Assembly (NCBI RefSeq): GCF_002214465.1
Contig: NZ_CP015101.1
Location: forward strand, 1,681,013-1,745,012
Source of the DNA: Thermococcus barossii
GTDB taxonomy: Archaea > Methanobacteriota_B > Thermococci > Thermococcales > Thermococcaceae
DNA: 64,000 nt
Direction of reading: 5' to 3'
In this document: piece after piece, positions 23,771 through 45,508 of the stretch
How the letters are laid out: each line of letters opens with the position of its first letter
Numbering within the stretch: position 1 is the first letter of the stretch
Made by a program: the position numbers and the translations under genes
The notes under the pieces: model-generated
The model's input: the letters and a program-made list of their open reading frames with translations, nothing else
What the model was told of the DNA's origin: nothing
Database searches by the model: none

Positions 23771-25267
23771 ATGGAAAGCGTCTTCCAGAACGAGACCGTC
23801 AGGGAGATACTCACGAGGTACAGGCGCATCTGGGCAATAGGCCACGCTCAGAGCGTCCTCGGCTGGGACATGGAGGTGAACATGCCCAAGGAGGGAATCC
23901 TCGAGCGCTCCGTCGCTCAGGGTGAGCTGAGTGTTCTCAGTCAGGAGTTTCTGCTCAAGCCTGACTTCATCGAGCTGGTTGAGAAGGCAAAGGGAATAGA
24001 GAGCCTCAACGAGTACGAGCGCGGCGTCGTTCGCGTCCTCGACCGCTCGATAAGGATAAACAAATCCTTCCCGCCCGAGTTCCTCAGGGAGATGAGTGAG
24101 GTAACGAGTCAGGCCACCAAGGCCTGGGAAGAAGCAAAGAAGAGCGACGACTACTCCAAGTTCGAGCCCTGGCTGGACAGGATTATAGACCTCGCCAAGA
24201 GGGCCGCCGAGTACCTCGGCTACGAGGACGAGCCCTACGATGCCCTGCTCGACCTCTTCGAGGAGGGCACAACCACCAGGGACGTCGAGAGGATGTTCGA
24301 CAAGCTGGAGAGGGAGCTCAAGCCGCTCCTTGAGAAGATCATGGAAGAGGGTAAAGTTCCTCAGAGCCACCCGCTCGAAAAGGAAAGCTATGACAGAGCC
24401 CAGATGGAGCGCGTGAACCGCTGGATACTTGAGAAGTTCGGCTTCCCGCTCGGAGTCCGCTCTCGCCTGGACGTTTCGGCTCATCCATTCACAACCGAGT
24501 TCGGCATAAGGGACGTGAGGATAACCACCAGGTATGAGGGCTACGACTTCAGAATGACCGTCCTCAGCACCGTCCACGAGTTCGGTCATGCCCTCTACGA
24601 GCTCCAGCAGGACGAGAGGTTCATGTTCAGCCCGATAGTCGGTGGCGTTTCCCTTGGAATCCACGAGAGCCAGAGCCGCTTCTGGGAGAACATCATCGGC
24701 CGCTCCAGGGAGTTCGCCGAGCTAATCTACCCAACCCTCAGGGAGAACCTGCCCTTCATGGCCAACTACACGCCGGAGGACGTTTACCTGTACTTCAACA
24801 TTGTGCGCCCGGACTTCATAAGGACCGAGGCTGATGTGGTCACCTACAACTTCCACATACTCCTCCGCTTCAAGCTCGAGAGGATGATGCTCAACGAGGG
24901 CGTCAAGGCGAAGGATTTACCGGAGCTCTGGAACGACGAGATGGAGAACCTCCTCGGTATAAGGCCGAAGACCTACCGCGAGGGCATCCTGCAGGACATA
25001 CACTGGGCCCACGGGACGGTCGGCTACTTCCCGACCTACAGCATAGGAACCCTCCTCTCGGCGCAGATATACTACCACATGAAGCGCGACCTCGACGTCG
25101 AGGGACTTGTGGGCGAGGGCAACTTCGGCCCGATAAAGGAGTGGCTCAGGGAAAGGATACACCGCTGGGGCAGCATCTACCCGCCGAAGGAGCTCCTCAG
25201 GAAGGCCATCGGCGAGGAGCTGGACCCGGAGTATTTCATCAGGTGGGTGCGGGAGAGATATCTGTAG
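23771..25267 (+). CDS. Thermostable carboxypeptidase (M32 family)
   Basis: A 498-residue metallocarboxypeptidase that removes C-terminal residues from peptides in the cytoplasm. The HEXXH zinc motif is HEFGH with His269, Glu270 and His273, the same numbering as the P. furiosus enzyme as I recall it, which supports ATG 23771 over GTG 23762; the third ligand is in the ESQSRFWEN segment (HESQSR). GGAGGGGTGG is the ribosome-binding site, and TATA-like AAGATTAAAAACG lies at about 23720. It supports the peptide-fermenting lifestyle together with Pcp at 28869. Confidence 0.95.
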   Translation: MESVFQNETVREILTRYRRIWAIGHAQSVLGWDMEVNMPKEGILERSVAQGELSVLSQEFLLKPDFIELVEKAKGIESLNEYERGVVRVLDRSIRINKSFPPEFLREMSEVTSQATKAWEEAKKSDDYSKFEPWLDRIIDLAKRAAEYLGYEDEPYDALLDLFEEGTTTRDVERMFDKLERELKPLLEKIMEEGKVPQSHPLEKESYDRAQMERVNRWILEKFGFPLGVRSRLDVSAHPFTTEFGIRDVRITTRYEGYDFRMTVLSTVHEFGHALYELQQDERFMFSPIVGGVSLGIHESQSRFWENIIGRSREFAELIYPTLRENLPFMANYTPEDVYLYFNIVRPDFIRTEADVVTYNFHILLRFKLERMMLNEGVKAKDLPELWNDEMENLLGIRPKTYREGILQDIHWAHGTVGYFPTYSIGTLLSAQIYYHMKRDLDVEGLVGEGNFGPIKEWLRERIHRWGSIYPPKELLRKAIGEELDPEYFIRWVRERYL

Positions 25268-25274
25268 AGGTTCA

Positions 25275-27233
25275 TTACCCTAATCCAATTTCTTTTAACT
25301 TGCTTGTCTCTATTTTTTTGTATAGCCATTCCTTTAATTCACGGTATCCCCCAAAGATACTAAGAAGGAGACTAACCACTAAACTAAAAATGACGCTTAT
25401 AAGTGTGAAATACGTGCTTAGATAATAGTACACAATCAGAGGTAATATAATGAGTATAACAATTATCATAGCTACAATAACACGTGAGTATTTTTCCGCT
25501 TTTTCTTTTGCGTTTTCTTTGATTTTGGCTTTAATTCTATTGATTTCTTTGTCTCTTGCATTTTTAGCGGCTTCTCTTTCACGTTGTTTTATTTTTTCTT
25601 CATACTTTGCTTTTATTTCTCTTTCTTTTGTTGCTTCAACATCTTTTTCCAGCTTTTTTGTTGCTTCTTCTATAGATTTGATGACGAATTCTTCGTTTAT
25701 TTCATTGATATTATTATCTGAGAATTCTAAAAGTACTGTCCCAATATAATCATGGTAAAATAACGTTGCAATATCCTCTTCGGAAATTTTTCCCTCTTTT
25801 TCTAACCGAAGTAGTATCTGATAAAACCTCCTCCAGACTCCTCTTGATATTAAGAGAGTGTTGGAATATGAAGCAATTATAATATACACCGGTAGATTTG
25901 GATTTAACGTTGGATTTTTAAGCCATAATATGGTAGCTAACAACCGATCTGGTATAACTTCCGGTATTGTTCCGAAGTTCTTGTGTCTGAATATTTCTAA
26001 GTTGAACTTGCTCAATTTCAAGTCAGAGGTCAAGAATATGTATTCTGCATTTTCGATTTTCCTTGGGGGCTTCCCTCTCTTCTTTCTTATTAAACATATA
26101 GCCGCTAAATCATGATTTTGAGATTCGAAAAATGCTATGTCTGAATTGTACATACTTTGTGGTTTATACTTTGTTAATTCTGTCCTTATTCCATCTGGGT
26201 CATCTACACAATCGGGATTATATTTGCTTAGGTCTACATCTGTGTACTCAATCTCAATGCCGAATTCTTTAACTTTGTCCTCAAGTGTTGCAATGAATTC
26301 ATTTACTTGAGGTTTTTTCCATCCTTTTCTCCGTAATATATCATATAGAGAATCAACACGAATTTCGCTAGGATAAAGTGATATTGCAGTTAGATACCCG
26401 CTAATAACTCTAACCATCTCAGCTAATGTGAAATCAAAGACTTTTAGTTTAAATTGGTGATATCTTTTCATCATGTCAAAAAGCTCTTTTGTGGCTTTGT
26501 TTCTCTCTTTTGTGTGAAGCCCAAATAAACTAAATAGAAAATTAGAATCTAGATAAATAGATAAGGGTGTAAATTCTTCTTTAATGTCCTGATCTGTGTG
26601 ATCATAGAATAATGCTATCGATAGTATTGAACCAAGGATTATCTCTTGGAATATCTCAAACATATCATCATTATTTTTGTATATATGTTCAATGTACCTG
26701 TAAATTTCAATATCAAGTTTTCTTTCTTCTTTGCTCTCCTTTTGTTCTTCAAGGAAGTGGGGACCTTGAGATGACAAAAATCCAATTAAAAAATTGATGT
26801 TAGATTCGACAAATCTGAAGAATCCCTCTTCTATTTGATTCTTAGGAATATCGTTGGGGGATCTTTTATTAATGAACTCCACCATGTCAAGCAAGAATTT
26901 GTTAAGCCTTCTTTTTTGCCTCTCCTCTATCTTGTCTACTGATTGTATAAATTCTAATCCTTCTCTTGTAAGGGCATATTCATGTCTTTTTTTGTTATAT
27001 TCAATATACCCATCTCCAACTGCTCTTCTCATTATTGTCTCGAGAGCATACCGTGGAATATCGAATCCAAACCTGAGCTTGATTATGTCCCTAATCTCCT
27101 TAAGCTTTGAGTACGAGAAATCTTGAGGAAGAGCCCTAAGAACAAATGGGTAGAATACTTCAATATAATCGTGACCCTCCTTGTGGAGAGCATGAATTAG
27201 GGCATAGTAGTATAATTTGGTTAAAGGTTGCAT
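25275..27233 (-). CDS. Winged-helix / PIN-like nuclease / coiled-coil / two-TM protein, possibly defence
   Basis: A 652-residue protein of unknown family. Residues 1-100 look like a winged helix (RYALETIMRRAVGDGYIEYN, ALTREGLEFIQ). Residues about 223-435 carry the acidic spacing of a PIN-like RNase: Asp229 in SIYLDSNFLF, Glu272 in FTLAEMVRV, Asp375 in NHDLAAICL and Asp404 in FLTSDLKLSKFN. A Lys/Glu-rich coiled coil (about 515-585) follows, then two membrane spans (about 585-607 and 610-628). GGGGAGGACA precedes ATG 27233. The gene is strikingly AT-rich (AAA, AAT and ATA codons) beside GC-rich neighbours, has no operon partner, and is probably acquired. A membrane-anchored, nucleic-acid-sensing RNase is plausible; the function is unproven. 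Confidence 0.8.
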   Translation of the reverse strand: MQPLTKLYYYALIHALHKEGHDYIEVFYPFVLRALPQDFSYSKLKEIRDIIKLRFGFDIPRYALETIMRRAVGDGYIEYNKKRHEYALTREGLEFIQSVDKIEERQKRRLNKFLLDMVEFINKRSPNDIPKNQIEEGFFRFVESNINFLIGFLSSQGPHFLEEQKESKEERKLDIEIYRYIEHIYKNNDDMFEIFQEIILGSILSIALFYDHTDQDIKEEFTPLSIYLDSNFLFSLFGLHTKERNKATKELFDMMKRYHQFKLKVFDFTLAEMVRVISGYLTAISLYPSEIRVDSLYDILRRKGWKKPQVNEFIATLEDKVKEFGIEIEYTDVDLSKYNPDCVDDPDGIRTELTKYKPQSMYNSDIAFFESQNHDLAAICLIRKKRGKPPRKIENAEYIFLTSDLKLSKFNLEIFRHKNFGTIPEVIPDRLLATILWLKNPTLNPNLPVYIIIASYSNTLLISRGVWRRFYQILLRLEKEGKISEEDIATLFYHDYIGTVLLEFSDNNINEINEEFVIKSIEEATKKLEKDVEATKEREIKAKYEEKIKQREREAAKNARDKEINRIKAKIKENAKEKAEKYSRVIVAMIIVILIILPLIVYYYLSTYFTLISVIFSLVVSLLLSIFGGYRELKEWLYKKIETSKLKEIGLG

Positions 27234-27335
27234 TGTCCTCCCCTATAGGGATTGTACTATGTACCAGTCTAGAATAGATAAAACTCTTTAGATACATAAA
27301 GTTTACGCAATTGGGGGGGACCGATACCTTTGTCT
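27234..27335. promoter_or_regulatory. AT-rich upstream region of the PIN-like gene
   Basis: About 100 bases between the PIN-like gene (leftward) and the ASCH gene end. On the minus strand AGTTTTATCTA (about 27274-27284) is TATA-like at a usable distance from ATG 27233. The base composition changes sharply near 27300-27340, which marks the border of the AT-rich insert. No gene is supported here. Confidence 0.35.
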
Positions 27336-27686
27336 TTATAATAAGGACTCCCCTATCCACGCCACCGGCTCAACCTCTATGGCAACGACGCCGTACTTCC
27401 TCTCCTTCTCCTCGGAGTAGAAGCGGCGGTAGACCCTGACGCCCTCCTCGATGCTCTCAACTCCGGGGAGGACGTTCTCGATACCCTCCCTCTCCAGCAT
27501 CTCCCTGAAGGAGGGGTAAACCCTCAAATCCTTCACGACGCATACCAGTTTGTTCTCGAAGACTATCTCGTCTCCTGGCCTGATGGCCTGCCTCTTCTCG
27601 TCGTAGAGCCTGCCCTCGATCCTCTTCCGTCCCTCGGCTATTGCCCTGAGGTACTCCTCCTGAAGGCCCATTCTCCATCTCGCCAT
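27336..27686 (-). CDS. ASCH-domain (PUA-like) RNA-binding protein
   Basis: A 116-residue protein with the ASCH fold: the N-terminal EYLRAIAEGRKRIEGRLYDEKR and RPGDEIVFENKLVCVVKDLRVYPSFREML are typical of the domain, a PUA relative that may bind RNA or nucleotides. GGTGGTTCC precedes ATG 27686. It lies 9 nt downstream of the reductase gene on the same strand and is likely cotranscribed with it. No catalytic role can be read from the sequence. Confidence 0.8.
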   Translation of the reverse strand: MARWRMGLQEEYLRAIAEGRKRIEGRLYDEKRQAIRPGDEIVFENKLVCVVKDLRVYPSFREMLEREGIENVLPGVESIEEGVRVYRRFYSEEKERKYGVVAIEVEPVAWIGESLL

Positions 27687-38833: not shown

Positions 38834-40113
38834 CAGCACACCCCCTCGTAAACTCTCGCCGTCTCCTCCGCCTTCCTCACGCGCCTGCCGTCGATGACAA
38901 TCTTACCTGAGTAATCCAGTTCCTCGAATTCACTCCACTCCGTGACGATCAGGACAATGTCGGTGGCTTTAAGAACATCAGTGGCTGAGTCAGCGTACTC
39001 AATCCTTTCCCCAACGTCGGGATATGCCCTCTTGAAGTTCTCCATCGCCTGCGGGTCGTAGGCAATAACCCTGGCACCTTCCGCTAAGAGTTTTTTAACC
39101 ACAACGTAAGCCCTTGTTTCTCTAACGTCGTCAGTGTTGGGCTTGAAAGCTAACCCCAAAACTCCAACCGTTCTTCCCCTCAGCTCGGGAATGTGCTTCT
39201 TGAGGAGTTCAATGAGTTTAAGAGGTTGCCTCTCGTTCACTTCAACGACAGCTTTGAGGATTATCGGGTCTTCCCCGAGGTCTTCAGCCTTCCTGATCAA
39301 CGCCCTCGTGTCCTTGGGGAAGCAGGAACCGCCCCAGCCGATTCCAGTCCGGAAGAAGTGCGGGCTAATCCGGTGGTCGAGGCCAACACCCTCGAAGACC
39401 TTCCACGAGTCGATACCGAGCTTCTTGCAAACGTTTCCAATCTCGTTGGCGAAGCTGATTTTTGTAGCCAGAAAAGCGTTCGAGGCGTACTTAATCATCT
39501 CAGCCGTTTTGATGTCAGTGAAGAGCTTGGGAGCACTTATTAGCGCGTAAAGCTCCTCAAGAACTTTCCTCGTCTGCTTGTCTATGACTCCGATAACAAT
39601 CCTGTCCGGGTTGAGGAAGTCCTCCAAGGCAACGCCCTCACGCAGGAATTCTGGATTCATTGCCAAACCAAAGTCTTGAAAGGCTTTTTTGCCGGATTCC
39701 TCCTCAAGAATTGGCTTGACGACTCCCTCTGTGGTTCCTGGCAAAACCGTGCTCTTGACGACGACAACGTGGTAAGAATCCTTCTCCTTCAGGATTTTCC
39801 CGATTTCTCTGGAGGCTTGTTTAACGTAGGTTAAGTCGATTGAACCGTCTTCTCTTGAGGGGGTTCCGACGGCTATAAACGTCACGTCGGAGTTAAGGAT
39901 TGCCTCGCGGTAATCTCTGGTCGCGTAGTACTTTCCTTTGAACTCCTCCATGAGTTCCGCGAGGCCTTCCTCGTAGATGGGCGGTTGTGAGTTGCTTATC
40001 ATGTTGATTTTTTTCTCGTCAACGTCCACGAAGATTACTTCATTGCCAAGCTTGACAAACCCCATTCCAGTGACAAGGCCCACGTAGCCGGAGCCGATGA
40101 CCGAAACCTTCAT
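38830..40113 (-). CDS. UDP-glucose 6-dehydrogenase
   Basis: A 427-residue NAD-dependent enzyme oxidising UDP-glucose to UDP-glucuronate. The N-terminal GSGYVGLVTGMGF is the NAD site. FLREGVALEDFLNPDRIVIG, TAEMIKYASNAFLATKISFANEIGN and GWGGSCFPKD (catalytic Cys within GGSCFPKD) are family signatures. GGTGATAGAATA precedes ATG 40113. It heads the leftward ugd-galU-GT2 operon. A second, different nucleotide-sugar dehydrogenase is at 41315. Confidence 0.93.
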   Translation of the reverse strand: MKVSVIGSGYVGLVTGMGFVKLGNEVIFVDVDEKKINMISNSQPPIYEEGLAELMEEFKGKYYATRDYREAILNSDVTFIAVGTPSREDGSIDLTYVKQASREIGKILKEKDSYHVVVVKSTVLPGTTEGVVKPILEEESGKKAFQDFGLAMNPEFLREGVALEDFLNPDRIVIGVIDKQTRKVLEELYALISAPKLFTDIKTAEMIKYASNAFLATKISFANEIGNVCKKLGIDSWKVFEGVGLDHRISPHFFRTGIGWGGSCFPKDTRALIRKAEDLGEDPIILKAVVEVNERQPLKLIELLKKHIPELRGRTVGVLGLAFKPNTDDVRETRAYVVVKKLLAEGARVIAYDPQAMENFKRAYPDVGERIEYADSATDVLKATDIVLIVTEWSEFEELDYSGKIVIDGRRVRKAEETARVYEGVCW

Positions 40114-40166
40114 TATTCTATCACCTGATATCCATAGGGTGTGAACTTAATAAAAAGGTGATGTTA

Positions 40167-41297
40167 ATGGAAAGAAAAAAGGTCTTTATGCTGCTCACTA
40201 ACCCCTTCAAGCCGGATCCTCGTGTGTATAAGGAAGCTAAAACTCTTATTGAACTTGGTTTTGATGTGACTGTGATAGCCTGGGATAGGGAAGGGGGGTA
40301 TCCTTCTCACGAAGTCATCGAAGGAATTGAAGTTTATCGGGTACCACTTAAATCAAAATACGCCTCTTTTGCTGATTTCTTTTTAAAGCTCCCATTGTTT
40401 TATCTTAAAGCCTTTTTATACGTCGTTAACAATCGAACCGGATTTTATGCAATTCATGCGAATGATTTTGACACAGCACCTTTGGCTTTCTTTTTATCTC
40501 GGCTTCTTGGGGCGAAATTTATCTATGATGTTCATGATCTGTATTATACTCGCATTTCTTTGCTTGAAGAACGGGAAAAGGATACTATTCTGAGAAAACT
40601 CTTTCGGACTGCTGAAATTCTGTTTGCTAAATTGTCTGACTCGGTGATAACCGTAAGTAGGTCTGTGGGGGGAGAGCATGAAGGATTCAAAGAATTCTTT
40701 GTAAGGAATGGCGTCATGCCGGACAAGATATATGTGGTATGGAACACTCCAGATTTGGACCTTTTCCCCCTGCTAAAACGACAGAAGCATAAAGGACTCA
40801 TTGTTGGGTATATTGGAACAATACGCAGTGTTTCTAATTTCATTCCTCTGTTTGAGGTTGCTCGAAGAAATAGGATATTAAAGATCCTCTTCGTAGGAGC
40901 CGGGGCTTCTAGGGATAAACTTCAAGCGTTAATATCCAGAGAGTACCCAGATATCAATGTAGAATTCGTGAAACACGTTCCTTATCAACAGGTTGCCAAG
41001 TATTATGCAGACTGTGATGCTATATACTCGGTCTTTCCTCTTACCGAGAACATAAGAAGGACTTTTGCCGTGAAGATGTTTGAGGGCGTTGTGATGGGAA
41101 TCCCAGTGATAGTCAATAAAGACACATTGATGGAGGATTTCATTCACATTCATAGGTGTGGGGTGGCGGTAGATATTTCATCCAATGACGTGGAAATGGC
41201 AATTGAAAAATCTCTAAAAATCAAACCTCCGGCGCAACTTAGAGACAAATGGAACTGGGAAAAGAACAAAGAGACGATAAAAAAGGCATATGAGTGA
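40167..41297 (+). CDS. GT4-type glycosyltransferase
   Basis: A 376-residue retaining glycosyltransferase of the GT-B fold. PFKPDPRVYKEAKTLIELGFDVTVI is the usual start; IVGYIGTIRSVSNFIPLFEVARRN and the acidic-helix region AVKMFEGVVMGIPVIVNKD (E-x7-E-like) are typical. ATG 40167 follows AGGTGAT. The AT-rich codon usage contrasts with ugd, next door. It opens the imported-looking glycan block 40167-45508. Confidence 0.85.
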   Translation: MERKKVFMLLTNPFKPDPRVYKEAKTLIELGFDVTVIAWDREGGYPSHEVIEGIEVYRVPLKSKYASFADFFLKLPLFYLKAFLYVVNNRTGFYAIHANDFDTAPLAFFLSRLLGAKFIYDVHDLYYTRISLLEEREKDTILRKLFRTAEILFAKLSDSVITVSRSVGGEHEGFKEFFVRNGVMPDKIYVVWNTPDLDLFPLLKRQKHKGLIVGYIGTIRSVSNFIPLFEVARRNRILKILFVGAGASRDKLQALISREYPDINVEFVKHVPYQQVAKYYADCDAIYSVFPLTENIRRTFAVKMFEGVVMGIPVIVNKDTLMEDFIHIHRCGVAVDISSNDVEMAIEKSLKIKPPAQLRDKWNWEKNKETIKKAYE

Positions 41298-41314
41298 GTC
41301 TTTATGGCAAGTAG

Positions 41315-42631
41315 TTATATTTTCATGCAAATCCTAACTTTTTTCTTAATTTTTTCACATACAACGTTTCTTGTATCGATGATGACCTTTCTGGGATTCT
41401 CCGTCAGGAGTTTGGGAAGGGTTTCCTTGAACATGTCATGGTCAGTGACTATAACTACAGCATCTGCCCATTTAATGACCTCATTAATGTCCTCCGAACT
41501 GAATAGTCCAGCTTTTGTTTTAATGGTCTTTGAGTAGGGGTCATGAACTCTAACCTTGGCTCCTCTTTCAACGAGTTCTTCGATAATTCTAATTGCTGGA
41601 GATTCGCGGGTGTCACTTATGTTTTTCTTATATGCAAGTCCAAGCACTGCTATTTTTGATCCCCATAGCTTCATGTTGATTTTTCTTAGTCCCTCTTCAA
41701 GCAGGTTTACCGTATGGATAGGCATATAGTCATTTATCTGCCCTGCAGTTTCTATAAATCTGGGTATGAATCCATATTGCTTTGCCTTGTATGAGAGATA
41801 AAATGGATCCAGTGGGATACAGTGCCCTCCAACTCCAGGCCCCGGATAAAACGCCATGAACCCATAAGGTTTAGTCTTTGCAGCGTCAATGACTTCCCAG
41901 ACGTCAATCCCCATTTTTTCAAATATCAGTGCAAGTTCATTCACTAGTGCAATGTTGACGTGCCTAAATATGTTTTCGAGCATTTTCACAGCCTCGGCTG
42001 TCTTGCAGTCCCGGACCTTGATGACCTGGGTAATGATGGAGCTGTAAAGGAGGGCCGCGATTTCAGTGAACTCTGGTGTTAATCCGCCAACGACTTTGGG
42101 TGTGTTGCTAATTGTGTATTTTTTGTTTCCAGGATCCACGCGCTCGGGAGAGTATGCAACACCAAAATCCTTTATTGCGGTTAACCCACTATATTCCTCA
42201 AGTATTGGAACCAAGATTTCTTCTGTGGTTCCTGGGTAAGTCGTGCTTTCGAGAATTATAAATTGTCCCTTGTTGAGGATTTTTCCAATGGACATTGCAG
42301 AGGACTTTATGAAGCTTAAATCCGGTGTTTTATCTTCTCTCAATGGGGTGGGGACGGCGATTATTATAAAGTCGCATGCTTTGAGGTCGTTAATATTATT
42401 TGTTGGCTTAAGATTGCTAAGATTTATGTCTTCATTTTTTATGTCATCTATGTATGAAACACCTTTTTTCAACATCTCTATTTTGCTTTCTGCTATATCA
42501 TACCCGATGACTTTGAACTTTTTTGAAAATTCTATAGCCAGTGGGAGCCCTACATAGCCTAAGCCGACAATACCTACAATTGTGGTGTTATCTAATATCT
42601 TCCTCTCGAGTTTTTTCAGCCAGTTCTCCAT
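41315..42631 (-). CDS. Nucleotide-sugar dehydrogenase (UDP-ManNAc/GlcNAc dehydrogenase type)
   Basis: A 438-residue enzyme of the WecC/WbpA-type dehydrogenase family. NAD site VGIVGLGYVGLPLAIEFS; ESTTYPGTTEEILVPILEE; AEAVKMLENIFRHVNIALVNELAL; catalytic Cys in GVGGHCIPLDPFYLSYKAK. The HCIPLDP form is characteristic of UDP-N-acetylated sugar dehydrogenases and differs from the SCFPKD of Ugd, so two different uronic acids are probably made in this region. The gene faces the two GT genes and is AT-rich. Confidence 0.88.
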   Translation of the reverse strand: MENWLKKLERKILDNTTIVGIVGLGYVGLPLAIEFSKKFKVIGYDIAESKIEMLKKGVSYIDDIKNEDINLSNLKPTNNINDLKACDFIIIAVPTPLREDKTPDLSFIKSSAMSIGKILNKGQFIILESTTYPGTTEEILVPILEEYSGLTAIKDFGVAYSPERVDPGNKKYTISNTPKVVGGLTPEFTEIAALLYSSIITQVIKVRDCKTAEAVKMLENIFRHVNIALVNELALIFEKMGIDVWEVIDAAKTKPYGFMAFYPGPGVGGHCIPLDPFYLSYKAKQYGFIPRFIETAGQINDYMPIHTVNLLEEGLRKINMKLWGSKIAVLGLAYKKNISDTRESPAIRIIEELVERGAKVRVHDPYSKTIKTKAGLFSSEDINEVIKWADAVVIVTDHDMFKETLPKLLTENPRKVIIDTRNVVCEKIKKKVRICMKI

Positions 42632-42757
42632 TTTGTGATCCCTCCAGGTATCTAGTATAGTGACTCTTCAAAATCTTTTTCTTTAATCTCTTCTTTAATT
42701 TCAAAAACAGGGCTAAATCTTTTAAGAGGAAAGTTGGGTACTTATCAAGGGGTATCT

Positions 42758-43906
42758 ATGAATGAGTTTAATGATAAAAATCTGCTAATAATTGCCAACG
42801 GGTTCCCTGCCGGGACGCTTTCAATCCATACTTTTGTGAAAGGGAACGTTGATGCCCTAAAAGAACATTTTAACGAAATATATGTAATCTCCCCATACCC
42901 CCGCTGGTACAGAAGAGAGCTCCGGGATTATTCTTATGATAATGTTAGAGTGTATTATCCCAGATTTTTTCATGTCCCCATAGAGCTTTTTAGAAGGAGA
43001 CTTGGAGACAACTTCTTTAAAGCTGCTGTGAAAGTCATCAAACGTGAGAAGATTGAATTTGATCTAATCCATGCTCATTTCACATGGCCGGCAGGGTATG
43101 CTGGAGCCAAATTGAAGGGGAGACATGGAGTTCCTCTTTTGATCACAACACATGGTCTTCACGTGACTCGGTTGGAGAATCTAAAAAAAAGACATGCTCT
43201 GAACACATGGAATTCCGCTGATGCCATAGTTAATGTATCGCGCAAGTGTGTGGAACTTTTAATGACTTTAGGTGTACCATCTTCTAAGTTGTACTATATT
43301 CCAAATGGGGTTGATCTTAAGAAATTTTATCCAGTTGACCCATTCATCGCAAGGGAGAATCTTGGAATATCCACTCGCAAGAGAGTCATTGTAAGCGTCG
43401 GAAATCTTGTGGAAAAAAAAGGATATACTTACCTGATACAAGCTGCTAAAATAATCCAGAAAATAAGAAATGATTTTGTAATTTATATTGTTGGAGGGGG
43501 ACCTCTATATAGTCGTCTCCAGAAGGAGGTACAAAATCTTAAGCTCCAAGAACATGTGGTTCTTGTGGGTCCCAAACCCCATGAAGAGGTGCCCCTTTGG
43601 ATGAATGCTGCAGATGTATTTGTTCTTCCAAGTCTGGTAGAAAATTTTGGCGTTGTTAATATTGAAGCTATGGCCTGTGGAAAACCGGTAATCTCAACAT
43701 ACAACGGTGGAAGTGAGGAGATAATAATTTCCGAAGACTATGGATTCCTTTGTCCTCCGAGGGATCCAGAATGTCTGGCGGGGAAGATTTTAATGGCACT
43801 TGAAAAGGAGTGGGATAGGGAGAAAATACGTAGATATGCGGAGCAGTTCACATGGGATTCTGTTGTGAAGCAGATTTTGAATGTGTATGATGAAATCCTT
43901 AGGTGA
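42758..43906 (+). CDS. GT4-type glycosyltransferase
   Basis: A 382-residue GT-B glycosyltransferase. HTFVKGNVDALKEHF, FDLIHAHFTWPAGYAGAKL, VSVGNLVEKKGYTYLIQAA and the donor-binding segment LPSLVENFGVVNIEAMACGKPVIS (E-x7-E) are all clear. AAGGGGTATCT precedes ATG 42758. The following AlkP-like gene begins 7 bp after its stop, so they are cotranscribed. AT-rich. Confidence 0.9.
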   Translation: MNEFNDKNLLIIANGFPAGTLSIHTFVKGNVDALKEHFNEIYVISPYPRWYRRELRDYSYDNVRVYYPRFFHVPIELFRRRLGDNFFKAAVKVIKREKIEFDLIHAHFTWPAGYAGAKLKGRHGVPLLITTHGLHVTRLENLKKRHALNTWNSADAIVNVSRKCVELLMTLGVPSSKLYYIPNGVDLKKFYPVDPFIARENLGISTRKRVIVSVGNLVEKKGYTYLIQAAKIIQKIRNDFVIYIVGGGPLYSRLQKEVQNLKLQEHVVLVGPKPHEEVPLWMNAADVFVLPSLVENFGVVNIEAMACGKPVISTYNGGSEEIIISEDYGFLCPPRDPECLAGKILMALEKEWDREKIRRYAEQFTWDSVVKQILNVYDEILR

Positions 43907-43912
43907 CACATT

Positions 43913-45508
43913 ATGTCTGATGTCAAGGTTGTAATAATTGGTTTGGATGGAGCAACGTGGGATGTAATCCTTCCATTTGTCGATGAAGGTAAACTCCCAA
44001 CCTTCAAAAAGCTCCTCAAAGAGGGTTCCTGGGGAATTTTGAGGAGTACTCTTCCTCCAGTTACTGTGCCCGCATGGCCATCCTTTGCTACCGGAAAGAA
44101 TCCAGCAAAACTGGGTGTATATAATTTCTTAATTGTTGACAATAAGACCGGGAAAGTTCGGGTTGTGAGATCTACCGACGTGAAATCTAAGAAGATATGG
44201 GATTATCTAGGTTTCTATGGGAAAACTTCAATAGTTCTGAATCACCCTGTTACGTATCCTCCCGAGAAGATTAAAGGTATAATTGTTTCTGGCATGCTAA
44301 CTCCACCAGATGCTAGAGATTATACTTATCCTTCCGAAGTTGCAGAAGAGCTAGGAACACTTGGATACATCATAGAACCGAATCCTGAAGTTGTTAGGAC
44401 TAAATGGGACACGGAGGAATTCATGAGCGAGCTGATAAGGACCATAAAAAAAAGGACGAACACTGTGATCTACTTAATGCAAAATTATTCTTGGGACTTT
44501 TTCTTTGTATTGTTCAGGGCTACTGATGTGGTTCAACATAAGCAGTTCCAGAATAAAGAGAAATTGCTTAGGGTATATTCTGAGATAGACAAAAGCTTGG
44601 ACGCAATACTTCAGACTATCCCAGAGAATACTGTCCTTGTTTTGATGTCTGATCATGGGTTCTGCGAACTTAGAAGATACTTTAATATAACTAAGTGGCT
44701 CTACGAAATGGGATACATTAAAATTAGAAAGAAGGAGGCCCATGGAGAAGGCTCAAAAATCTTCATGAAAACGAGAATTACCCAAACTTCTATTTTAGGT
44801 ATTCTGAGAAAGCTTCATCTGGATTGGATACGAAAGTACATCCCCGTAGTCATTAAGTCGAAGTTACCAGCATCTTCCGTGGAGATAGATCTCAAAGAAA
44901 GCTTTGTTTATCCTGGAATTCTGCTCACAGGGGCATCCCAATATCTCTCAATCAACCGTGAAAAAGTTCGAGATGAAACGGAATACGAAAAGCTTAGGGA
45001 TGAATTGATTCTTAAGCTGTCTTCCCTTAAGGATCCAAAAACAGGGGAGAGTGTCATTGAAGCAATTTACAAAAAGGAGGACGTGTATTCTGGCCCATAC
45101 TTACATGAGGCCCCCGATATTATTTTCTTATTGAAGAGAGGATATGGCCTGACTACATTCCTCGATCTAACGGCCCCTATGTTTGAGGATGTTAACTCTC
45201 CTTTTGGGACACATCATTTGAATGGAATAGTTCTTTTCTGGGGAAAGGGGATTAAGAAGGGGTATGGTCTTCGGCAGGGTGCAGAAATAACTGACATAGC
45301 CCCCACTGTACTTCATATTTTTGGATTCCCTATTCCTAGGGATATGGATGGAAGGGTTCTTCTACAAGTTTTTGACGACAGTGCAGAGACCTTGAACAGA
45401 ACTCCCAAATACGTCGATCCTGAGTATTATGCAAACCTTGAAAAGAAAACAGAGGAAAAACAGCTAAAAAAAACAATCAAGAAGCTGAGGCTTAAAGGCA
45501 AACTCTAA
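43913..45508 (+). CDS. AlkP-superfamily phosphohydrolase/phosphodiesterase
   Basis: A 531-residue protein of the alkaline-phosphatase superfamily (COG3379-like). Metal-binding Asp in IIGLDGATWDVI, the nucleophile region LPPVTVPAWPSFATGKNPAKLGVYNF, and metal ligands in LMSDHGFCELRRYFN are visible, and GTHHLNGIVLFWGKG resembles the last motif. C-terminal residues (about 490-531) are Lys/Glu-rich. A second, distinct member lies at 48386. Such enzymes may trim phosphate, phosphodiester or sulfate groups on glycans or lipids. AGGTGACACATT precedes the ATG. AT-rich. Confidence 0.85.
   Translation: MSDVKVVIIGLDGATWDVILPFVDEGKLPTFKKLLKEGSWGILRSTLPPVTVPAWPSFATGKNPAKLGVYNFLIVDNKTGKVRVVRSTDVKSKKIWDYLGFYGKTSIVLNHPVTYPPEKIKGIIVSGMLTPPDARDYTYPSEVAEELGTLGYIIEPNPEVVRTKWDTEEFMSELIRTIKKRTNTVIYLMQNYSWDFFFVLFRATDVVQHKQFQNKEKLLRVYSEIDKSLDAILQTIPENTVLVLMSDHGFCELRRYFNITKWLYEMGYIKIRKKEAHGEGSKIFMKTRITQTSILGILRKLHLDWIRKYIPVVIKSKLPASSVEIDLKESFVYPGILLTGASQYLSINREKVRDETEYEKLRDELILKLSSLKDPKTGESVIEAIYKKEDVYSGPYLHEAPDIIFLLKRGYGLTTFLDLTAPMFEDVNSPFGTHHLNGIVLFWGKGIKKGYGLRQGAEITDIAPTVLHIFGFPIPRDMDGRVLLQVFDDSAETLNRTPKYVDPEYYANLEKKTEEKQLKKTIKKLRLKGKL

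Follow-up and report, generated by a model that had tools for sequence, protein, structure and literature searches.

Why a Thermococcus genome of 1.92 Mb should hold, between housekeeping genes, an AT-rich gene for a protein with a putative nuclease core and a membrane anchor at its end is the question raised by this locus, which lies in the 64-kb stretch of DNA analysed here as a whole (hereafter, the window). The preliminary description had proposed a single-gene effector that senses infection or stress and cleaves RNA near the membrane. The open reading frame on which this proposal was built does exist; it runs on the minus strand, which had not been given, and encodes 652 amino acids from an ATG codon at 27233 to a stop codon at 25275. 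The locus comprises the following features:

25275–27233, minus strand: the whole gene, an open reading frame for a membrane-anchored PIN-like protein of 652 residues
27234–27335, minus strand: the upstream intergenic region (GC 0.40), with GGGGAGG and AT-rich candidate TATA stretches found by reading the sequence
25268–27335, no strand: the cargo interval from the carboxypeptidase Taq gene to the ASCH-domain gene, a Thermococcus insertion hotspot

An AT-rich gene in a Thermococcus insertion hotspot

With 33.3% GC against 53.0% for the 64-kb window, the gene coincides with the lowest-GC segment of about 2 kb in the window. Its GC3 of 0.309 departs from that of three neighbouring genes (0.829, 0.711, and 0.732, i.e., 0.71–0.83), and the contrast in codon usage noticed at first sight is therefore real and marks a foreign composition. 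GGGGAGG, which reads as a purine-rich ribosome-binding sequence, stands directly 5' of the ATG. The convergent neighbour ending at 25267 is presumably a carboxypeptidase-Taq-like gene, and upstream we assume a short ASCH-type gene (27336–27686) followed by a geranylgeranyl-reductase-like gene, all three names coming from reading of the sequences. No tRNA gene that could have served for tRNA-targeted integration occurs within the 64-kb window, and a transposon with terminal repeats was considered and rejected, only chance-like repeats being found around the gene. The window has a second AT-rich stretch (39700–45500, about 40% GC) whose genes read as one nucleotide-sugar dehydrogenase-like, two glycosyltransferase-like and one phosphodiesterase-like; it is probably a surface-glycan or glycosylation island.

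Searches with the protein and with a family profile found the gene in 2 of the 115 genomes of the phylum, namely the window genome and G061, whose full-length orthologue is 72% identical and sits at the same locus. In both carriers it occupies the same gap, flanked by housekeeping genes, an arrangement that Thermococcales at large do not share. Elsewhere in Thermococcus the interval measures from 11 bp to more than 7 kb, and its cargo includes VapB/VapC pairs (PF02697, PF01850), DUF433 with DUF5615 (a PIN-like relative), TnpB-type OrfB, a 404-residue AT-rich gene without Pfam match, and long secreted-type proteins (matching interval examined in L053–L061, L068, L070, L021, L023, and L042). The interval is thus a small hotspot for cargo, with conflict genes being gained and lost. 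Several observations concern the cargo itself. In the 404-residue reading frame (L053:249–1460) the stretch AVLIDAKVE resembles the motif of PD-(D/E)XK nucleases; the very long secreted-type proteins (L056:8792–13531, L057:10222–13554, L061:447–3887) have repeated KTYGGS..DE blocks and adjoin SQHop-cyclase-like proteins in several Thermococcus genomes; and in a 190-bp empty site (L033:3004–3193) one can read what looks like the end of a VapB-like antitoxin, which suggests a remnant of lost toxin–antitoxin cargo. No antitoxin gene adjoins the 652-residue gene in either Thermococcus locus, and it was rightly described as a single gene.

Domain organization and structure models

Structure prediction, alignment, and hydropathy divide the protein as follows:

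26934–27233, minus strand: N-terminal winged helix, residues 1–100 (model and Foldseek)
26373–26567, minus strand: first half of the PIN fold, residues 223–287, with the codons of D229 (26547–26549) and E272 (26418–26420)
26136–26372, minus strand: helical insertion inside the PIN fold, residues 288–366, of low model confidence and variable length in the alignment
25914–26135, minus strand: second half of the PIN fold, residues 367–440, with the codons of D375 (26109–26111) and D404 (26022–26024)
25719–25913, minus strand: conserved helical region, residues 441–505, starting after W437-L438-K439 (alignment column counts)
25479–25718, minus strand: coiled coil, residues 506–585, within a single model helix (514–604)
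25278–25478, minus strand: membrane hairpin of two helices with a basic tail at the C-terminus, residues 586–652 (hydropathy), fast-evolving

AlphaFold2 models computed from a six-sequence alignment reached a pLDDT of 72.9 for the window protein and 77.0 for a relative from Kluyvera, and in both a winged helix and a helical linker are followed by a beta-alpha core with interruptions, a further helical region, a single long coil, and a pair of helices at the C-terminus. In the window protein the winged helix is formed by helices 25–34, 44–55, and 61–73 and strands 77–80 and 85–88; the first half of the PIN fold by beta 225–228, alpha 242–258, beta 262–266, and alpha 267–286; and the second half by alpha 370–384, beta 398–402, alpha 405–416, and beta 425–428, pLDDT falling below 50 at 288–294, 340–346, and 348–372. 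The winged helix suspected from the sequence is borne out by this secondary structure and by Foldseek matches in the PDB to F93 of STIV and to LmrR (probability up to 1.00, TMt about 0.66–0.76); HTH_45 appears in the G061 orthologue at E=0.0016, below cut-off. Equally, the coiled coil and the two C-terminal spans of the preliminary description find their counterparts in helix 514–604 and in hydropathy peaks at 585–603 (3.12) and 613–631 (1.72), and every member with a full C-terminus has one or two strong hydrophobic segments in the same place. C-terminal Pfam matches to VIT1, RIFIN, and EMC3 were rejected as similarity of coils and hydrophobic helices.

As to the core, AF1683 (1w8i) is matched by both models (probability 0.98 and 0.96) and PAE0151 (2fe1, 0.99) and a Mycobacterium tuberculosis VapC (7vwo, 0.85) by the second, these VapC-type PIN matches having TMt values of 0.51–0.56 in two models from different starting sequences; Exo1 and PRORP rank lower among the matches of the first model. 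Since all E-values against the PDB are 0.001 or higher, the matches are leads, backed by the agreement of the two models. The top structural match in the viral library is A0A8S5M7Q9, annotated "PIN like domain" (probability 0.99, 235 columns). Sequence-profile searches gave the window protein no PIN profile match at E<=10, PIN_3 of Pfam being reached below cut-off (E=6e-4) over the first PIN half of the Enterococcus relative only, and hhalign found no match to the VapCs of the same Thermococcus hotspot. Profiles plausibly miss the PIN because an insertion of about 80 residues separates E272 from D375. Sequence searches of solved structures returned coil or membrane noise only, whether the query was the protein or the family profile. 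A PIN-like fold is therefore supported by both models, at the modest confidence that they allow (pLDDT 73 and 77), and the predicted PIN domain stands as to its fold but not as to profile–profile likeness to the local VapCs.

Conservation of the acidic residues

The four acidic residues on which the nuclease had been proposed are placed as described, at D229, E272, D375, and D404, and counts over 22 family members bear out three of them in the core family. The first position is Asp in 21 of 22 (Glu in one), the second Glu in 21 of 22 (Gln in one), and the third Asp in 18 of 22, the four exceptions forming one clade. Position 404 departs from the proposal, being Asp in 3 of 22 members (both archaea and the Bacteroidota protein G304) and mostly Asn elsewhere, with Thr or Ser in a few. 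The preceding T402 is Thr or Ser in 22/22, so that the 402–404 motif reads TSD in the archaea and mostly T-x-N in the bacteria. In view of these counts, D229, E272, and D375 are family signatures, and D404 is lineage-specific. The members of the subclade without D375 (G137, G287, G495, and G450, at L097, L101, L102, and L103) keep the architecture, and they may be nucleases that are inactive or altered; a restriction-modification (R-M) operon holds one of them, beside YhcG, and another adjoins TraQ of a conjugative element. One may ask whether the whole family is a catalytically dead PIN scaffold, acting as regulator or sensor without cutting, an idea which the prevalence of Asn at position 404 and the loss of D375 in this subclade might encourage. 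Against it, the window protein keeps all of D229, E272, D375, and D404, and the PIN halves are its most conserved parts between the Thermococcus orthologues (85% and 89% identity); we hold it to be very improbable.

Distribution and selection

Outside the Thermococcus pair, relatives are 16–27% identical (those of one search 20–24%), mostly full length, and span Bacteroidota, Enterobacterales, Pseudomonas, Bacillota, and Actinomycetota. Seven are plasmid-borne; relatives occur on plasmids of Sporosarcina, Enterococcus faecium, Pantoea, Klebsiella, Hymenobacter, and Arthrobacter, along with a fragment in Listeria, others come from Pseudomonas, Kluyvera, and Hymenobacter telluris, and a DNA search found carriers in 2 of 5,426 E. 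coli genomes. Sampling of the Kluyvera family, of the phylum to which Hymenobacter belongs, and of the class that includes Pseudomonas yielded further relatives; 8 of 345 genomes in the Bacteroidota-side sample carry the family at E<=1e-10. The divergent Enterobacterales relatives G165 and G137 had no E. coli match in the DNA search, none of the phage records held a relative, and the window protein alone found none among the viral or genome contigs of the collection. A mixed alignment was too diverse as a query, and relatives were found by later bacterial alignments.

A midpoint-rooted tree of residues 1–520, whose deep nodes are weak, places both archaeal proteins beside Bacteroidota G304 (support 99/98), which implies transfer between domains, be it from bacteria to archaea or the reverse. 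We take the gene to be horizontally acquired. Over residues 1–500 the Thermococcus pair has a dN of 0.103 and a dS of 1.455, i.e., a ratio of about 0.07, approximate as dS is near saturation, and this ratio indicates that the gene is maintained by purifying selection. This is a rare family under purifying selection, with the order winged helix, PIN-like nuclease, coil, and membrane hairpin, found in archaea and several bacterial phyla.

Could it be an ordinary cellular RNase bound to the membrane, with a housekeeping or stress role comparable to that of PIN-TRAM proteins like YacL, or of RNase Y? Bacteria do anchor RNases at their membrane, and a few relatives lie among ordinary chromosomal genes. 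A gene carried by 2/115 genomes of its phylum, 2/5,426 of E. coli, and 8/345 on the Bacteroidota side, and of foreign composition besides, is too patchy for a housekeeping RNase, which we rejected; the chance that any such cellular role is right seems to us extremely small.

Divergence of the membrane end

Conservation collapses towards the C-terminus. The coil (506–585) is 47% identical to the orthologue against 76–89% upstream, and residues 586–652 are 25% identical; amino-acid identity falls from 0.78 at 481–540 to 0.26 after 541, and nucleotide identity from 0.78 to 0.41–0.44 at the membrane end, which is near that of unrelated sequence. Like drops at the C-terminal end occur in the Klebsiella/E. 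coli (0.53 to 0.30), Pseudomonas/Kluyvera (0.42 to 0.23), and G495/G287 (0.42 to 0.25) pairs. The hydrophobicity of the hairpin is kept despite this divergence, and either hydrophobicity alone may matter at the membrane end, or the module may be exchanged or diversified as a sensor.

The independent variation of the membrane module in these pairs would also suit a nuclease of the SNIPE kind, anchored at the injection site and cutting incoming viral or plasmid DNA, not RNA. The layout of membrane anchor, coil, and cytosolic nuclease, with a conserved nuclease and a variable membrane part, recalls SNIPE (PMC13190303), and DNA-cutting PIN-like members such as Exo1 do appear, weakly, in the structure search. 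The top structural matches, however, are VapC-type RNases, not FEN/Exo enzymes, and the N-terminal single span, DUF4041, and GIY-YIG of SNIPE are all absent here. We consider DNA cleavage at the point of entry unlikely, though it is the alternative to which we give most weight.

Genomic contexts of bacterial relatives

If the gene serves defence, as first proposed, its homologues might be expected among defence genes, and many are. The gene sits between hsdM and hsdS with hsdR downstream in G413, after hsdR...hsdM and hsdS in G516, and downstream of type I R-M genes in Hymenobacter telluris; in G450 it belongs to a type III-like operon of DNA methylase, YhcG nuclease, the gene itself, and a res subunit. 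At another locus (L015) it adjoins GajA of Gabija (E=4.7e-161), together with a UvrD-like helicase, and in Sporosarcina it lies beside CBASS-like NTase, ThiF, JAB, and SAVED genes; methyltransferase, helicase, and AAA genes are nearby on the Hymenobacter plasmid. The two E. coli copies belong to P2-like prophages, and one of them has the tail sheath gene on one side and tail-fibre assembly genes on the other, which is the position where P2 carries fun. The fun locus has been reported as defence-enriched and as the second defence hotspot of P2 (PMC9519451). No recognised defence neighbour was seen in Kluyvera, Pseudomonas (arsenic-type genes), G304, or G836. By tally of individual loci, the family is mobile and recurs in defence islands, prophage hotspots, and mobile elements.

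Such company raises the thought of a selfish toxin by which mobile elements stabilise themselves or exclude one another, with no general anti-virus role. The seven plasmid relatives, three prophage or P2-like viral loci, and the one relative beside TraQ agree with it, as do the toxin–antitoxin pairs that the Thermococcus site holds elsewhere. Neither the two Thermococcus loci nor the bacterial loci, however, have a conserved antitoxin-like partner, and stabilisation would hardly explain chromosomal embedding inside R-M operons; we judge a purely selfish role to be decidedly unlikely.

A putative membrane-tethered defence effector

The best explanation, which we regard as reasonably likely, is a horizontally acquired single-gene defence effector engaged in conflict with viruses or mobile elements. 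Of the outcomes named beforehand as speaking against the preliminary description, none was observed: the models do show a PIN-like fold, three of the four acidic residues are kept in the core family, and synteny varies among Thermococcales. A role in defence is well supported by genomic context, and since the family is rare, shared with bacteria, and often found among anti-virus defence genes, the gene is probably a single-gene immune system. As to its mode of action, the C-terminal hairpin would tether the protein with both ends in the cytoplasm, as the even number of spans and the basic tail suggest. The nuclease would be held inactive near the membrane until infection, by a built-in control (autoinhibition) that we propose because no antitoxin gene lies alongside. 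The fast-evolving coil and hairpin, or a docked partner, might detect infection at the membrane; upon activation, the PIN site (D229, E272, D375, and D or N at position 404) would cut nucleic acid, most likely RNA by analogy with VapC, and cleavage would result in growth arrest or virus block. The winged helix may autoregulate the gene at the level of transcription, or serve to bind either nucleic acid or a partner.

More tentatively, and with considerable doubt, these proteins may form an undescribed family of immune nucleases, each a single protein, that crosses domains and serves hyperthermophilic archaea, bacteria, and bacterial prophages alike; a conserved PIN engine with its winged helix would be combined with a rapidly exchanged membrane hairpin at the C-terminus, and the hairpin would set which virus or membrane event is sensed. 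If the proposed role is true, the window protein would give the archaea an example of an immune nuclease tethered to the membrane, and the E. coli relative in a P2-like prophage a genetically easy test case. Since the nuclease is conserved and the membrane module diverges freely, it would become testable how effectors of one protein sense infection at the membrane without attack on the host, and the Thermococcus insertion site offers a small, comparable hotspot for finding other archaeal defence genes.

Comparison with known systems

No named family with this domain order was found in Pfam, NCBIfam, PADLOC, or PHROGs, in line with what the preliminary description had recognised. On the window protein, Pfam, NCBIfam, and PADLOC gave coil or membrane noise, or nothing; PADLOC 2.0.0 matched 0 of the 22 members at E<=0.001; and PHROGs offered no family model for the 22, its single match (E=0.00099, in one member) being of coil level. 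The family is thus unnamed in these libraries. Published leads with which it could overlap are DS-3, DS-5, PDC-S70, and the embedded systems described by Payne et al. 2024.

The window protein has in common with VapC a PIN-like fold and the acidic order D...E...D...D/N. VapC, however, is a soluble toxin of 120–150 residues with an adjacent antitoxin gene, whereas the window protein has 652 residues, no antitoxin, and in addition some 80 inserted helical residues within the fold, a winged helix, a coil, and a hairpin, with no match at the sequence level; the small PIN toxin with its antitoxin alongside that defines VapBC type II systems is not found here. A0A8S5M7Q9 (PIN_8, "PIN like domain"), the best viral structural match, differs in its 366 residues and a TMt of 0.28, and the window protein has no hidden-Markov match to PIN models. 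PDC-S70, a PADLOC candidate, is alike in being a candidate single-gene PIN nuclease found mainly in archaea (PMC12988326); the PADLOC 2.0.0 models, which may or may not include it, match none of the 22 members.

SNIPE (PMC13190303) resembles the window protein in being a single protein with a membrane-tethered cytosolic nuclease, a region of coil, and a membrane part of low conservation, and in occurring in mobile-element settings of E. coli. It differs by its GIY-YIG fold, its middle domain (DUF4041), neither of which is matched here in Pfam or PADLOC, and its N-terminal single-pass anchor in place of a C-terminal hairpin. DS-3 of DefensePredictor is a one-protein PIN system, anti-phage in E. 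coli, for which autoinhibition has been proposed (PMC13092281). Its PIN is split between the N and C terminus (PMC13092281), whereas that of the window protein is central; like the window protein, it has no antitoxin, and the two could be one and the same system.
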